Part shown: piece by piece, positions 11,026-17,896 of the stretch
Layout: the number at the start of each line of letters is the position of its first letter
How positions within the stretch are numbered: position 1 is the first letter of the stretch
Assembly (NCBI GenBank): GCA_943329845.2
Contig: CALQFM020000039.1
Coordinates: forward strand, 1-37,499
Length of the DNA: 37,499 nucleotides
Origin: Candidatus Kuenenia stuttgartensis
GTDB taxonomy: Bacteria > Pseudomonadota > Alphaproteobacteria > SMXS01
Reading direction: 5' to 3'
Notes under the pieces: generated by a model
What the model was told of the DNA's origin: nothing
Database searches by the model: none
Seen by the model: the letters and a program-made list of their open reading frames with translations, nothing else
Translations under genes and position numbers: made by a program

Positions 11026-11162
11026 GCGTGGCCTCGTCAGTGATGGTCAGCCTACTATTGGGCCGGCGCGTCCGGCGCACAAGGGCATCCGCCTCCAGCA
11101 AAACCGCTTCCACCTCCTTGCGGCCCCCGGATAGGCTGTCCGCGGAACTAGGGGAGACAGCC

Positions 11163-12047
11163 ATGCCGCGTCCGACGTCGATACCCGCCATCGACCTGAT
11201 GGTGTCGCTGCCATTGGGTGAAGGCGAGGCCTGGAGCAACCGTCTGGCGTCACCGGTGAAGGGCGCGCCGGCCAAGGGCAGCCCGGTCGAATATCTGTTC
11301 GGCGACGGCGGCGGCCGCAAGGACGAGGCGAAGAATCCGGCGCAGGTCGTCGCCGCCATGGACGCGCACAACGTAGCGATCTCGCAGATCAGGATCGACC
11401 CGGACAACCCGGAGCCGGCGCTGGCGCTGTTCGAGCGCTGGCCCGACCGGTTCATCGGCGAGGTCTGGATCGACTGCAACCGGGGCATGGACGCGGTGCG
11501 CGCCATCGAGCGCGCGGTGAAGCTCCACCGCAACGTGAAGTCGGTCACCGTCGCGCCCGGTTTCATCAACCCGCCTGCCGCCATCGACGACAAGAAGTGG
11601 TACCCCGTTTACGCCAAGTGCATCGAGCTGGGCCTGCCGGTCAACGTGTTCGTCGGCGTGCCCGGGCCGCGCGTGCCCTACAAGTACCAGCACCCCGGCC
11701 TGCTCGACGAGATCGCCTGGTTCTTCCCCGAACTGAAGGTGGTGATGCGCCACGGCGGCGAGCCGTGGACCGGGCTGGTGTGCAAGCTGCTGCTGAAATG
11801 GCCCAACCTGTTCTATTCCACCTCAGCCTTCGCGCCGAAATACTACCCGCGCGACGTGCTCGACTTCTGCAACAAGCGCGCCCCGACCAAACTGCTGTTC
11901 GCCGGCTACTACCCGTTGCTTGGCTGGGACCGGATTTTCGCCGAGATGGACGACCTGCCGCTGCGCGACAGCCTGTGGGCGCCGTTTCTGCGCGACAACG
12001 CGGTGGCGGTTTACGGGCTTGCCGATATGATCGGCGCCCCCGACTGA
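11163..12047 (+). CDS. Amidohydrolase_2-like TIM-barrel protein lacking most metal ligands
   Basis: A 294-residue protein with the overall pattern of the amidohydrolase-2 family (ACMSD and 2-pyrone-4,6-dicarboxylate lactonase relatives): IPAID start, VKSVTVAPGFINPP, PELKVVMRHGGEPW and PTKLLFAGYYP. The metal positions are degenerate. The N-terminal DxHxH is DLMVS (residues 11-15), the barrel HxG reads FVG in NVFVGVPG, and the late FGSDYP aspartate is replaced in FAGYYP; only the His of MRHGGEPW remains. It may therefore be metal-independent or non-catalytic. ATG at 11163 has GGGGAGA 5 nt upstream. It heads a run with the medium-chain reductase 27 nt later and the methyltransferase. Function unknown. 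Confidence 0.82.
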   Translation: MPRPTSIPAIDLMVSLPLGEGEAWSNRLASPVKGAPAKGSPVEYLFGDGGGRKDEAKNPAQVVAAMDAHNVAISQIRIDPDNPEPALALFERWPDRFIGEVWIDCNRGMDAVRAIERAVKLHRNVKSVTVAPGFINPPAAIDDKKWYPVYAKCIELGLPVNVFVGVPGPRVPYKYQHPGLLDEIAWFFPELKVVMRHGGEPWTGLVCKLLLKWPNLFYSTSAFAPKYYPRDVLDFCNKRAPTKLLFAGYYPLLGWDRIFAEMDDLPLRDSLWAPFLRDNAVAVYGLADMIGAPD

Positions 12048-12074
12048 AGCGAAGAAATCCAAGGGAGAGTGACG

Positions 12075-13100
12075 ATGGCGACGATGCGCGCATGGGTGTC
12101 CGAGGAACCCGGCTACGAGAATCTGAAGCTGGTGGAGCGGGAGATTCCCACGCCCGGCCCGGGCCAGGTGCTGCTGAAGATGAAGGCCGCCAGCCTCAAC
12201 TACCGCGACACGGCCGTGGTGAAGGCGGCCTATGCGGCGCCGCGCCTTCCGGCCGTCGTCCCGTGCTCGGACGGCTGCGGCGAGGTCGTCGAGGTGGGCG
12301 CCGGCGTCAGCCGCGTCAAGGTGGGCGACCGGGTCGCGCCGCTGTTCTTCCAGGACTGGCTTACCGGCCCGCGCAAGGGCGAGTACGTCAACACCGCGCT
12401 GGGCGCCGGGCTCGACGGCTGCCTGCAGGAATATATGTGCCTCGAGGAGCGCGGCGTCTCGAAGGTGCCGGCGCACCTGACCGACGCCGAGGTGGCAACG
12501 CTCCCCTGCGCCGGTCTGACCGCGTGGAACACGCTGTTCGCCACCGGACGGCTGAAGGCGGGCGATACGGTCGTGGTCCAGGGCACTGGCGGCGTCTCCA
12601 TGTTCGCACTGCAGTTCGCGCGGATGGCGGGGGCCAGGGTGGTGGCGACCTCTTCGTCGGACGAGAAGCTGCAGAAGGCAAAGCAGCTCGGCGCCGGGAT
12701 CCTGATCAACTACAAGACCACGCCGAAATGGGGCGCCGAGGTCCAGAAGCTGACGAATGGCGGCGGCGCCGACATCGTCGTCGAGGTGGGCGGCGTCGGC
12801 ACCATGCTGGAATCGCTGAAGGCGATCCGCATCGGCGGTTTCATCGGCGTGATCGGCGTGCTCACCGGCGGCTCGGGTGGCGAGATGCCGACGGCCTACA
12901 TCATGGGCAAGAGTGCGCATGTCAACGGCATTTCGGTGGGCAGCCGCGACTGGTTCGAGGACATGTGCGAGGCGATCGACGCGGCCAAGCTCCAGCCGGT
13001 GATCGGCGCGAGCTTCGGCTTCGACAGGGCGAAGGACGCTTTCGCGGCCATGACCTCGCAGACGGTGGTCGGCAAGATCGTCATCGATATCAACAGGTAA
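12075..13100 (+). CDS. Medium-chain dehydrogenase/reductase (quinone oxidoreductase-like)
   Basis: A 341-residue MDR-superfamily NAD(P)H oxidoreductase. The N-terminal GroES-like half contains LNYRDTAVVKAAY and VPCSDGCGEVVEVGAGV. The usual zinc-binding GHE is replaced by CSDGCG and no structural zinc Cys cluster is present, as in zinc-free members. The Rossmann half carries the nucleotide motif VVQGTGGVSMFALQFA. The C-terminus is VVGKIVIDINR. Reactions in this group include reduction of quinones, enones or aldehydes; the substrate is unknown. ATG at 12075 is preferred because GGGAG lies 7 nt upstream, while the in-frame GTG at 12069 overlaps that site. It is in a same-strand run with the amidohydrolase-like and methyltransferase genes. 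Confidence 0.9.
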   Translation: MATMRAWVSEEPGYENLKLVEREIPTPGPGQVLLKMKAASLNYRDTAVVKAAYAAPRLPAVVPCSDGCGEVVEVGAGVSRVKVGDRVAPLFFQDWLTGPRKGEYVNTALGAGLDGCLQEYMCLEERGVSKVPAHLTDAEVATLPCAGLTAWNTLFATGRLKAGDTVVVQGTGGVSMFALQFARMAGARVVATSSSDEKLQKAKQLGAGILINYKTTPKWGAEVQKLTNGGGADIVVEVGGVGTMLESLKAIRIGGFIGVIGVLTGGSGGEMPTAYIMGKSAHVNGISVGSRDWFEDMCEAIDAAKLQPVIGASFGFDRAKDAFAAMTSQTVVGKIVIDINR

Positions 13101-13119: not shown

Positions 13120-13734
13120 ATGGGCTTCTACGACTCACGCATCCTGCCGAAGCTGCTGAACTGCTGCATGTCCATGGGCGTGATCGCCGAGGAGCGTGCC
13201 CGGCTGGTGCCGCGCGCCCACGGCAAGGTGCTGGAGATCGGCATCGGTTCAGGCCTGAACCTGCCGCTCTACGGCCCGGCGGTGGAAAGTGTCACCGGCG
13301 TGGATCCGGGCATCGAGCTGGGCGAAATGGCGAAGAAGCAGGCCGCCGCGGTTCGCTTCCCGGTCGACTTCCGCCAGGTGTCGGGCGAAAGCCTGCCGCT
13401 CGACGATGCCAGCTTCGACTGCGCCGTGATCACCTGGACGCTGTGCACCATCCCGGATCCGTCCGCCGCGCTGCGCGAGGTGCGGCGCGTGCTCAAGCCC
13501 GGCGCCGAGCTGTTCTTCGTCGAGCACGGCAAGGCGCCGGATCCGGGCGTGGTGAAGTGGCAGGACCGGCTGAACAAGGTCTGGCCCAGCATCGCCGGCG
13601 GCTGCAACCTCAACCGCAAGATGGACCAGATCATCGCTGACGCGGGGTTCCGCATCGACGAGCTGGAGACCAGCTACCGTCCCGGGCTGAAGCCCATGAC
13701 CTATTTCTACATGGGCGTGGCGCGGCCGGCCTGA
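13120..13734 (+). CDS. Class I SAM-dependent methyltransferase
   Basis: A 204-residue methyltransferase. The SAM-binding motif I is VLEIGIGSGLNLPLY, the acidic end of strand 2 is VTGVDPGIE, and motif VITWTLCTIPDPSAALREV followed by RVLKPGAELFFVEHG is characteristic. It looks like the phospholipid or METTL7-like branch of UbiE-type enzymes; the segment WQDRLNKVWPSIAGGCNLNRK is typical of that group. GGAG lies 8 nt before the ATG. It is last in a three-gene run behind the MDR gene (19-nt gap). Its last 28 nt overlap the convergent membrane gene. The acceptor could be a lipid or small molecule and is not determined by sequence. Confidence 0.88.
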   Translation: MGFYDSRILPKLLNCCMSMGVIAEERARLVPRAHGKVLEIGIGSGLNLPLYGPAVESVTGVDPGIELGEMAKKQAAAVRFPVDFRQVSGESLPLDDASFDCAVITWTLCTIPDPSAALREVRRVLKPGAELFFVEHGKAPDPGVVKWQDRLNKVWPSIAGGCNLNRKMDQIIADAGFRIDELETSYRPGLKPMTYFYMGVARPA

Positions 13735-14162: not shown

Positions 14163-14233
14163 ATTCCTCTCCCCCGGTTCCCTTTTGCGTACCATGCGGT
14201 AATGTGGGCCGATCTTTGGCGGTCGAGGGAAGG

Positions 14234-15355
14234 ATGTCCATGACAATCGGAAAGCGGCGTTCCCTGGCGGCGGCCATCGCCTGCGGCCTGATGCTGTTGG
14301 TCTCCGCGTCGGCCAGCGCCGCCAAAGACTACATGGTCGAGCCGCTTCTGACCGGCCTCGACCGGCCGTGGAGCCTGTCGTTCCTGTCCGACGGCGCCAT
14401 GCTGCTGACCGGACACAAGGGCACGCTGTGGATCGTCAGGGACGGCAAGCTGTCGGCGCCGGTTTCTGGCGTCCCGGCCGTTGAGTTCGCCGGCCAGGGC
14501 GGCCTGTTCGAGGCGCTGCCACATCCGGGCTTCGCCGAGAACGGCCTTGTCTACCTGTCCTATGCCCACAAGGGCGAAGACGGCAATGCCCTGCGCGTGG
14601 CGCGGGCGCGGCTCGACGGCGGGGCGCTCAAGGACCTGACGGTGATTTTCGAAAGCAAGCCCGGGCGATCGACCGCCGTCCACTATGGCGGCCGCATGGT
14701 CTGGCTGCCCGACGGCACGTTGCTCGTCACCAATGGCGACGGCTTCAACTACCGCGAGCAGGCGCAGAATCTGGCCAGCGACTTCGGCAAGATCGTCCGC
14801 CTCAACGCCGACGGCAGCATTCCTGCCGACAACCCGTTCGCCGGCCGCAAGGACGCCAAGCCGGAGATCTGGAGCTACGGCCACCGCAATCCGCAGGGGC
14901 TCGTGTTCGACGCGGCCAGCGGAGTCGTGTACGCGCACGAGCACGGCCCGCGCGGCGGCGACGAACTCAACGTCATCGGGAAGGGCCGCAACTATGGCTG
15001 GCCGCTGGCGACTAAAGGCATGGACTATTCCGGCGCCTACATCACGCCGTTCAAGGACTACAAGGGCACCGAGAACGCCATCACCGGCTGGACGCCGTCG
15101 ATCGCGCCCTGCGGCCTGGCGATCTACCGCGGCACGGCCTTCCCGCAGTGGGACGGCGACCTGTTCGTTGGCGCGCTCGCCGAACGCAGCCTCCACCGCG
15201 TCGACATGCAGGACGGCAAGGTCGTCGGCGAGGAAACCATGCTGAAGGACCTGAACGCGCGCATCCGCGACGTGCGCACGGGCCCCGACGGCCTGATCTA
15301 TGTGCTAACCGACGGCGAAGGCGCCAGGCTGCTGCGGCTCAAGCCGGCGTCCTGA
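14234..15355 (+). CDS. PQQ-dependent soluble aldose sugar dehydrogenase (Asd/YliI-like)
   Basis: A 373-residue secreted six-bladed beta-propeller. The first 30 residues form a Sec signal peptide: basic start, hydrophobic core, Ala-rich SASASA cleavage region. Diagnostic blocks are LDRPWSLSFLSDG, YGHRNPQGLVFD and EHGPRGGDELNVIGKGRNYG, the PQQ and calcium pocket of soluble glucose dehydrogenase-type enzymes. The protein should oxidise aldoses in the periplasm with PQQ. No pqq biosynthesis gene is in the window, so PQQ comes from elsewhere in the genome or the medium. ATG at 14234 follows GAGGGAAGG; a second ATG at 14240 is equally plausible. Its stop lies 26 nt upstream of the SDR start at 15382; an in-frame ATG for that SDR also overlaps the stop. 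Confidence 0.93.
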   Translation: MSMTIGKRRSLAAAIACGLMLLVSASASAAKDYMVEPLLTGLDRPWSLSFLSDGAMLLTGHKGTLWIVRDGKLSAPVSGVPAVEFAGQGGLFEALPHPGFAENGLVYLSYAHKGEDGNALRVARARLDGGALKDLTVIFESKPGRSTAVHYGGRMVWLPDGTLLVTNGDGFNYREQAQNLASDFGKIVRLNADGSIPADNPFAGRKDAKPEIWSYGHRNPQGLVFDAASGVVYAHEHGPRGGDELNVIGKGRNYGWPLATKGMDYSGAYITPFKDYKGTENAITGWTPSIAPCGLAIYRGTAFPQWDGDLFVGALAERSLHRVDMQDGKVVGEETMLKDLNARIRDVRTGPDGLIYVLTDGEGARLLRLKPAS

Positions 15356-16645: not shown

Positions 16646-17752
16646 CTATTCGGCGGCGATCGACCGGGCGTCGTCGTCGAGCGGGCGCCCCTGGCGGGCC
16701 AGCAGGGCGCGCAGGTCCCGGATCGGCGGGAACACCTCGTTGTTCCAGTCGGTGCCCTGGGCGTCGTGGGCGGCCTGCTCCAGCTGCACGATGTCCTTGT
16801 CCTCGGTGAAGATCCGCTCGGTGAACCAGGTCACGAACGGCCACACCACGTGGATCAGGCCGGGCACCGGCGGCTTCTTCACCGAAAGATAGCCGAAGGT
16901 ACGGTTGGTGCGCTGCTCCTTGTCGAGCGGGGTATAGGCCAGCCAGACGTCGAGCACCGGCTCCACGTCGCCGCCCACCTCCCTGCCCACCCATACCTTG
17001 AGGCGCTGGTAGGGATACTCGGTCCGGATCGTCATCAGGTCGCTGAAGTCTTTCTGCTTGCCGCCGCGGCTGCGCACCAGGTCGACGATCACGGTCTCGC
17101 CCATGCTGGCGCGGCCTTCGATGCGGTTGAAGGTGTAGTCCACCTCGCACCAGTCGCCGCCGCTGCGCTTGCCGAGGCACTTGGCCTTGATGGTTCCCAT
17201 GTTCTTCCGGTGGAGGAACTGGTGGTTCATGTCGAACAGGTTCTCGTGCATGAACGTGTAGTGGCAGTCGACCTCGCGGTTGAGCTTGCGGGTCTTGTAG
17301 TCGCGGTTCATGGCGGAACCGAGAAAGGCGGGCGCTGCCGCGTCGGCCAGTGCCGGATCGCCGGGGAACACGAAGATCAGGCCGTCGATCTCACGCGCCG
17401 GGTAGGAGCGCACGCCGTTGGGCAGCTTCTCCATGCCGAAATAGGGCACGTCGACGCACTTGCCCGAGCAGTCATAGGCCCAGCCATGGTAACCGCATTT
17501 CAGCACGTCGCCATCGACCACGCCGACGCTCAGAGGCACCTGGCGGTGGGCGCAGCGGTCCTCCAGCGCGAACACGCTGCCCGACGCGCCACGATAGAGC
17601 ACCACGGGCTCGCCCATCAGGCGGCGGCCCAGCGTCTTGCCCTGCTTCAGTTCGTCCGACCAAGCCAGCGGATACCAGTGATCCGGGTGGGAATCGACCT
17701 TGCGCAGGTCGACGGCTTCATTGGATGCAAGGGAACGACGATCCTGGGCCAA
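16646..17752 (-). CDS. Aromatic ring-hydroxylating / Rieske oxygenase
   Basis: A 368-residue Rieske non-haem iron oxygenase. The Rieske [2Fe-2S] ligands are Cys67-x-His69 in CAHRQ and Cys86-x2-His89 in CGYHGW, spaced as in the family. The mononuclear iron motif is NLFDMNHQFLH (Asp174, His177, His181), with a likely third ligand Asp in FTEDKDIVQLEQ. Architecture resembles single-component terminal oxygenases such as vanillate demethylase or KshA-type proteins. Its reductase and ferredoxin are not nearby, so it needs partners from elsewhere. TTG at 17752 is favoured by GGAGAAG 6 nt upstream; the frame also allows TTG at 17797. The substrate (aromatic, steroid or other) is not evident. Confidence 0.9.
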   Translation of the reverse strand: MAQDRRSLASNEAVDLRKVDSHPDHWYPLAWSDELKQGKTLGRRLMGEPVVLYRGASGSVFALEDRCAHRQVPLSVGVVDGDVLKCGYHGWAYDCSGKCVDVPYFGMEKLPNGVRSYPAREIDGLIFVFPGDPALADAAAPAFLGSAMNRDYKTRKLNREVDCHYTFMHENLFDMNHQFLHRKNMGTIKAKCLGKRSGGDWCEVDYTFNRIEGRASMGETVIVDLVRSRGGKQKDFSDLMTIRTEYPYQRLKVWVGREVGGDVEPVLDVWLAYTPLDKEQRTNRTFGYLSVKKPPVPGLIHVVWPFVTWFTERIFTEDKDIVQLEQAAHDAQGTDWNNEVFPPIRDLRALLARQGRPLDDDARSIAAE

Positions 17753-17896
17753 GCCGATCTTCTCCGAAAGGGGCGGTCCAAGGACCAATCCGCCCAACCC
17801 TAGCGCGGGTGCCCGCGGATTGATACAGTTTCGCGCACTAGGCCGGTTTTGTGGCGGATTACAGGGGTTCCGGCGCCTGCGCCGCTCCTTGAGCCT

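Follow-up and report, generated by a model that had tools for sequence, protein, structure and literature searches.

A conserved clade of PF04909 barrel proteins that lacks all four canonical metal ligands and keeps the strand 6 histidine

THE LOCUS AND ITS PREDICTED PROTEIN

The window, by which we mean the whole stretch of 37,499 nucleotides of DNA that was analyzed, contains an amidohydrolase-like gene that is followed by two genes on the same strand. The features concerned are the following:

11150..11156, plus strand, Shine-Dalgarno-like AGGGGAG, 6 bases ahead of the ATG
11163..12047, plus strand, gene for an Amidohydro_2 protein of 294 amino acids, with M13, S15, F163, and Y249 at the ligand positions and H197 kept
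12069..13100, plus strand, MDR gene (zinc-type alcohol dehydrogenase/quinone reductase, by Pfam), directly downstream
13120..13734, plus strand, class I SAM methyltransferase gene (UbiE-like, by Pfam), after the MDR gene

Translation of the amidohydrolase-like gene gives a single open frame of 294 codons plus stop with zero internal stops; a preceding sequence-only reading had called the frame intact and the ribosome binding site good, and the translation and the AGGGGAG element bear it out on both points. By comparison of loci, most relatives begin at the same residue as the window protein, and L019 has GTG at the homologous start position. In L018 (genome G004, minus strand, locus 2374-2376), the codon for residue 1 is ATA, and the next ATG corresponds to residue 13.

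The protein belongs to PF04909 (Amidohydro_2; 73.4 bits against a gathering cutoff of 26.4), with a match spanning only residues 86 to 286 of the 294; NCBIfam assigned no family to it. An AlphaFold2 model built from the window protein with eight close sequences (pLDDT 70, pTM 0.75) has an amidohydrolase-type β/α barrel at moderate confidence, and the ten best VIA-align rows are all amidohydrolase-type structures (Z 19.0 to 21.4). A second AlphaFold2 model, with L012 as the predicted protein, was poorer (pLDDT 64.9, pTM 0.71). The best solved match is 3irs, both by Foldseek (E 1.3e-10) and by VIA-align 2 (Z 21.4, rmsd 3.0, 247 residues aligned); since the other 49 VIA-align 2 rows shown, mostly amidohydrolase-superfamily proteins, reach Z 17.5 to 20.1, the barrel assignment is safe and the ranking is not decisive. 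The family match and the model thus agree with the earlier description of the protein as amidohydrolase-2-like with a barrel. The loops that would line the pocket (167-175, 223-226, and 249-253) have pLDDT values below 50, too low for an interpretation of the pocket.

METAL-LIGAND POSITIONS IN THE ALIGNMENTS

For comparison, we aligned 74 sequences: 22 of the query clade, 24 of sister groups, 2 3irs-like, 22 canonical, and 4 further PF04909 proteins from the window's own genome. The first tree held 63 of the 74 rows, leaving out L003 and L005 (distant paralogues from the window's own genome) and 9 canonical rows taken to be redundant; a tree with the motif columns masked held 61 rows, two outgroup rows being left out as well. 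Metal ligands were tallied over all 22 canonical rows and clade residues over 13 of them. The 22-member clade that includes the window protein has support of 100/100 in the 63-row tree, and its SH-aLRT value is still 100 in the 61-row tree after removal of the motif columns.

Canonical rows of the multiple alignment have the motifs IDIHTHAE, FHTGQTG, AHPSFPW, and FGSDWP, and the window protein has D11-LMVS, FVG (163-165), RHGGEPW (196-202), and FAGYYP (246-251) in their place. M13 and S15 replace the two His residues of DxHxH, F163 replaces the His of HxG, and Y249 replaces the Asp of GSDxP, so that canonical PF04909 rows have four ligands, whereas the window protein has none; neither HxH nor SDxP is present anywhere in its 294 residues. 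The replacements DLMVS, FVG, and FAGYYP had been claimed from the DNA and were confirmed by translation and alignment. All four ligands (the DxHxH or equivalent pair, the β5 His, and the β8 Asp) are absent in 22/22 clade members and intact in 22/22 canonical rows, so the replacements are not due to chance or sequencing error. Homologues thus carry the same substitutions, and these are a property of the whole clade and not of one protein, with partial losses in the sister groups.

A profile-profile alignment against the canonical rows (99.7% probability) likewise places F163 on the His and Y249 on the Asp; it begins at residue 58 and so covers β5 and β8, not β1. Because the Pfam match also starts downstream of β1, the β1 motif rests on the multiple alignment, and the model overlay with 3irs, which runs from residue 7, gives its placement as well.

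H197 aligns with the β6 His of the canonical rows (the catalytic His of ACMSD-type enzymes), and this position is His in every row of the clade (22/22), canonical, and sister groups. The sequence-only reading had counted the His of RHGGEPW as the one survivor of the metal site. H197 is indeed kept, but we take its position to be that of ACMSD His228, which serves as the general acid/base rather than as a ligand; on that view, the metal site is lost wholly, not partly.

SISTER GROUPS AND THE NEAREST SOLVED RELATIVE

HxH and the β5 His are missing in all sister and 3irs-like groups, and the last ligand varies between groups. The VVN group (13 rows: L026, L065, L067, L069, L071, L073-L077, and L080-L082) has the β8 Asp only, in 13/13, and the β8 Asp is also the sole ligand kept in two actinobacterial sister rows. 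The WAQ group (9 rows: L025, L027, L028, L066, L068, L070, L072, L078, and L079) has Asn at β8 in eight rows and Asp in one; it is not firmly one clade, appearing in 40% of the bootstrap trees of 63 rows and with an SH-aLRT value of 76 in the masked tree. The two 3irs-like rows have Ser at the β8 position and group with canonical rows in the 63-row tree, a placement that the program flagged as a possible long-branch artifact. The outgroup (L001, L002) is very distant, and HxH may have been lost once or more than once. These two proteins, of the DPHHHLW type and encoded in the window's own genome, presumably belong to LigI's group, judging by the motif; they have an ESNFP motif with Asn in place of the β8 Asp.

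By sequence, the best solved relative is BB4693 of Bordetella bronchiseptica (PDB 3irs and 3k4w; titled uncharacterized), with an E value of 1.7e-17, or 1.3e-22 with the clade profile. It likewise lacks HxH (IIDFRLRPP), the β5 His (MMTGG), and the β8 Asp (FGTAYP) and keeps the His, in SSHGNWPW. Unlike the window clade, it is without R196, E200, and Y249, and its close relative L030 falls in a different tree group.

RESIDUES FIXED IN THE CLADE

All 22 clade rows have R170, R196, Y249, K208, and Q176; the sister rows (24) and the canonical rows tallied (13) have other residues there, except that two sister rows share Q176. Arg at 170 or 196 and Tyr at 249 occur in none of the 24 sister, 2 3irs-like, and 13 canonical rows tallied. 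The novelty of R170 is uncertain, and the residue may be old rather than gained, because it borders on an alignment gap and a conserved Arg (GMR) is present two columns off in the canonical rows. Near the His, position 200 is Glu in 20 clade rows and Asp in 2. K226 is present in 22/22 and is also common to canonical members; N106 is invariant in the clade, its sister comparison covering the four commonest residues only. From this pattern we infer a pocket that has been rebuilt, not abandoned, presumably for catalysis.

H197 is the sole invariant His of the 22 clade rows, which supports, at the level of sequence, the earlier view that no other His fills the metal site. D11, D67, and D182 are invariant as well; D11 and D182 are equally conserved in canonical members, and D67 is found in 22/24 sister rows, so they are not new ligands of the clade.

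CONSERVATION AND SELECTION

The gene is present in 10/10 genomes searched in its order, its own included; the nine others have genes with 63 to 95% identity to that of the window, and one of them carries a second copy at 58%. In evenly drawn samples, matches occur in 39/398 genomes for the phylum (E 1e-15) and in 45/385 genomes for the class (E 1e-25). Among the best 30 loci extracted from each sample, query-clade loci number 2 for the phylum and 12 for the class, the rest being sister or canonical. One scan of viral contigs gave no relative of the window protein. The dN/dS values are 0.086 to 0.295 over seven comparisons and 0.086 to 0.100 against the three nearest relatives. L006, L007, and L008 have genes 94 to 95% identical to that of the window; the metagenome-assembled genomes concerned bear the titles Rhizobium sp. 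Q54 and Sphingomonadales bacterium, yet they are placed in one genus, and at least one of these titles seems a poor taxonomic label.

GENE NEIGHBORHOODS

In the genus of the window, the MDR gene follows in 7/7 genomes and the methyltransferase gene follows the MDR gene in 6/7, once with a gap of ~0.5 kb; in the seventh genome (L092), the methyltransferase gene did not turn up in the stretch retrieved. The partners named in the sequence-only reading are thus shared within the genus but differ in other branches. For the two remaining genera of the family (L010-L012), tblastn at 1e-8 gave no match to either window neighbor. In L012, a thiolase gene lies 12 bases upstream and a phytanoyl-CoA-dioxygenase-type gene lies downstream, with genes for Rieske, MDR, and P450 proteins in the surroundings; in L011, the gene directly upstream is another MDR gene. 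The glucose/sorbosone dehydrogenase gene, which occurs once in the window (14204-15355), is matched twice in tandem in L006 (8746-11405) and L008 (9179-11838).

We examined nine of the ten loci of the outer branch (L061 was left out). The next gene downstream encodes a KshA_C-domain Rieske oxygenase in 7/9 (L053, L055, L084, L086, L087, L088, and L090); in L054 an annotated Rieske gene comes second, after an SDR gene, and in L085 the adjacent gene encodes an acyl-CoA dehydrogenase, not a Rieske protein. An acyl-CoA ligase gene lies directly upstream in 6/9 (L053, L054, L055, L086, L087, and L088), and in the remaining three that place is taken by a gene for a TetR regulator (L084), for another PF04909 protein (L085), or for a protein of the YqaJ type (L090). 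Since L053, L054, L055, and L088 (which holds L024) are close relatives in the tree, there are fewer independent cases than these counts suggest. The order ligase, metal-less amidohydrolase, KshA-type Rieske occupies L053 12293-16030, L055 12265-15991, L086 5013-8737, L087 5296-9087, and L088 4561-8321; this arrangement recurs across at least three families of Alphaproteobacteria and, in Novosphingobium/Sphingobium, is carried on plasmids. A homologue with ligase and Rieske neighbors is encoded on pNL2 of Novosphingobium aromaticivorans (WP_011906846.1).

The genes that immediately flank the amidohydrolase gene in the window and in L085 do not include the ligase/Rieske pair, and the inner-branch loci L083 and L089 have neither partner in the two flanking genes tested per locus. 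A Rieske gene of the window (16646-17797, minus strand) belongs to the VanA_C type and lies 4.6 kb from the amidohydrolase gene; it was not counted as part of a module. In the two actinobacterial sister loci, nearby genes are annotated as enoyl-CoA hydratase, acyl-CoA dehydrogenase, adenylate-forming enzyme, or thiolase. The common theme of these neighborhoods is oxidative, often CoA-linked catabolism.

DISCUSSION

The likeliest reading of the window protein is that of a metal-free enzyme in a conserved subfamily, with a pseudoenzyme as the main rival. The retained H197, together with the fixed residues R196, E/D200, and Y249, favors an enzyme, judging from conservation. The clade is a PF04909 branch that has lost its metal site and has kept the acid/base His on strand 6; that it would use H197 for metal-free catalysis is a reading that we hold at about even strength. 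In the mechanism proposed, H197, probably with E200, would move protons; R196, perhaps with R170 and K226, would hold a negatively charged substrate, e.g., a carboxylate or a CoA thioester; and Y249 would occupy the room left by the metal and its Asp. The step could be hydrolytic or of the hydratase, decarboxylase, or retro-aldol type, and the pathway may be an oxidative, perhaps CoA-linked, catabolism of a hydrophobic or cyclic compound.

The window protein has its fold, its family, and the β6 His in common with ACMSD, LigW, γ-resorcylate decarboxylase, and 4-oxalomesaconate hydratase, the last of which is a divalent-metal enzyme. LigI, a 2-pyrone-4,6-dicarboxylate lactonase, reportedly catalyzes its reaction independently of metal while keeping residues of the metal-site type and using Asp248. 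The likeness lies in metal-independent catalysis, which is only proposed here; LigI's arrangement, with HxH and the β8 Asp retained and used without metal, is not that of the window protein, which has M13, S15, and Y249. PF04909-type decarboxylases are described as divalent-metal enzymes (PMC6644310). In a study of bile-salt degradation in Caenibius, an induced "amidohydrolase" is proposed for conjugate hydrolysis (PMC12882949). Our search of open-license papers yielded no description of the subfamily of the window protein.

The loss of all four ligands would also suit a barrel that binds a ligand or a partner protein, e.g., a metal-containing amidohydrolase, and does not itself catalyze a reaction. 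A longer amidohydrolase-family gene is adjacent or within ~8 kb in two actinobacterial sister plasmid loci and in L085, and a protein with a binding or regulatory role could be conserved just as strictly. However, the His at the catalytic position is kept in 22/22 with polar residues fixed beside it, and the four other PF04909 matches of the window genome all sit on other contigs, so that no obligate partner is adjacent; we regard such a pseudoenzyme as a minority prospect. A metal still bound through different residues is improbable: D11, D67, D182, and H197 are invariant and could be offered as ligands, but a single invariant His and a Tyr in place of the GSDxP Asp in 22/22 led us to reject the idea.

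It is very improbable that the protein is a usual metal-dependent decarboxylase or hydrolase of the ACMSD/LigW/4-oxalomesaconate hydratase kind with misaligned motifs. Enzymes of this kind are among the best fold matches after 3irs, but the two alignments give the same substitutions at β5 and β8, and the full sequence offers no HxH or SDxP elsewhere; this reading was rejected on the agreement of the alignments. The loss of the catalytic site might suggest a decaying gene, an idea that is hardly credible given the open frame, the low dN/dS, and the presence in all ten genomes of the order; we rejected it on selection and conservation, and the retention of the MDR and methyltransferase neighbors in the genus is in line with the earlier opinion that the gene is not decaying.

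Returning to the metal-free enzyme, a broader version of it can be put forward tentatively, and we lean somewhat against it as a whole: the entire barrel branch would be metal-free by way of a rebuilt site (H197, E200, R196, Y249, and perhaps R170), the sister groups would represent intermediate states of metal loss, and the outer branch would act with the acyl-CoA ligase and the KshA-type Rieske protein in an undescribed catabolic route.

The public records examined label clade and sister proteins "amidohydrolase" or "amidohydrolase family protein", a name that misleads if the proteins work without metal as enzymes. The ligase/amidohydrolase/Rieske neighborhood occurs in cultured Novosphingobium and Sphingobium, which makes the function testable there. 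If the proposal is true, the series of canonical, Asp-only, and ligand-free proteins would be a natural experiment in the conversion of a metalloenzyme barrel to metal independence.
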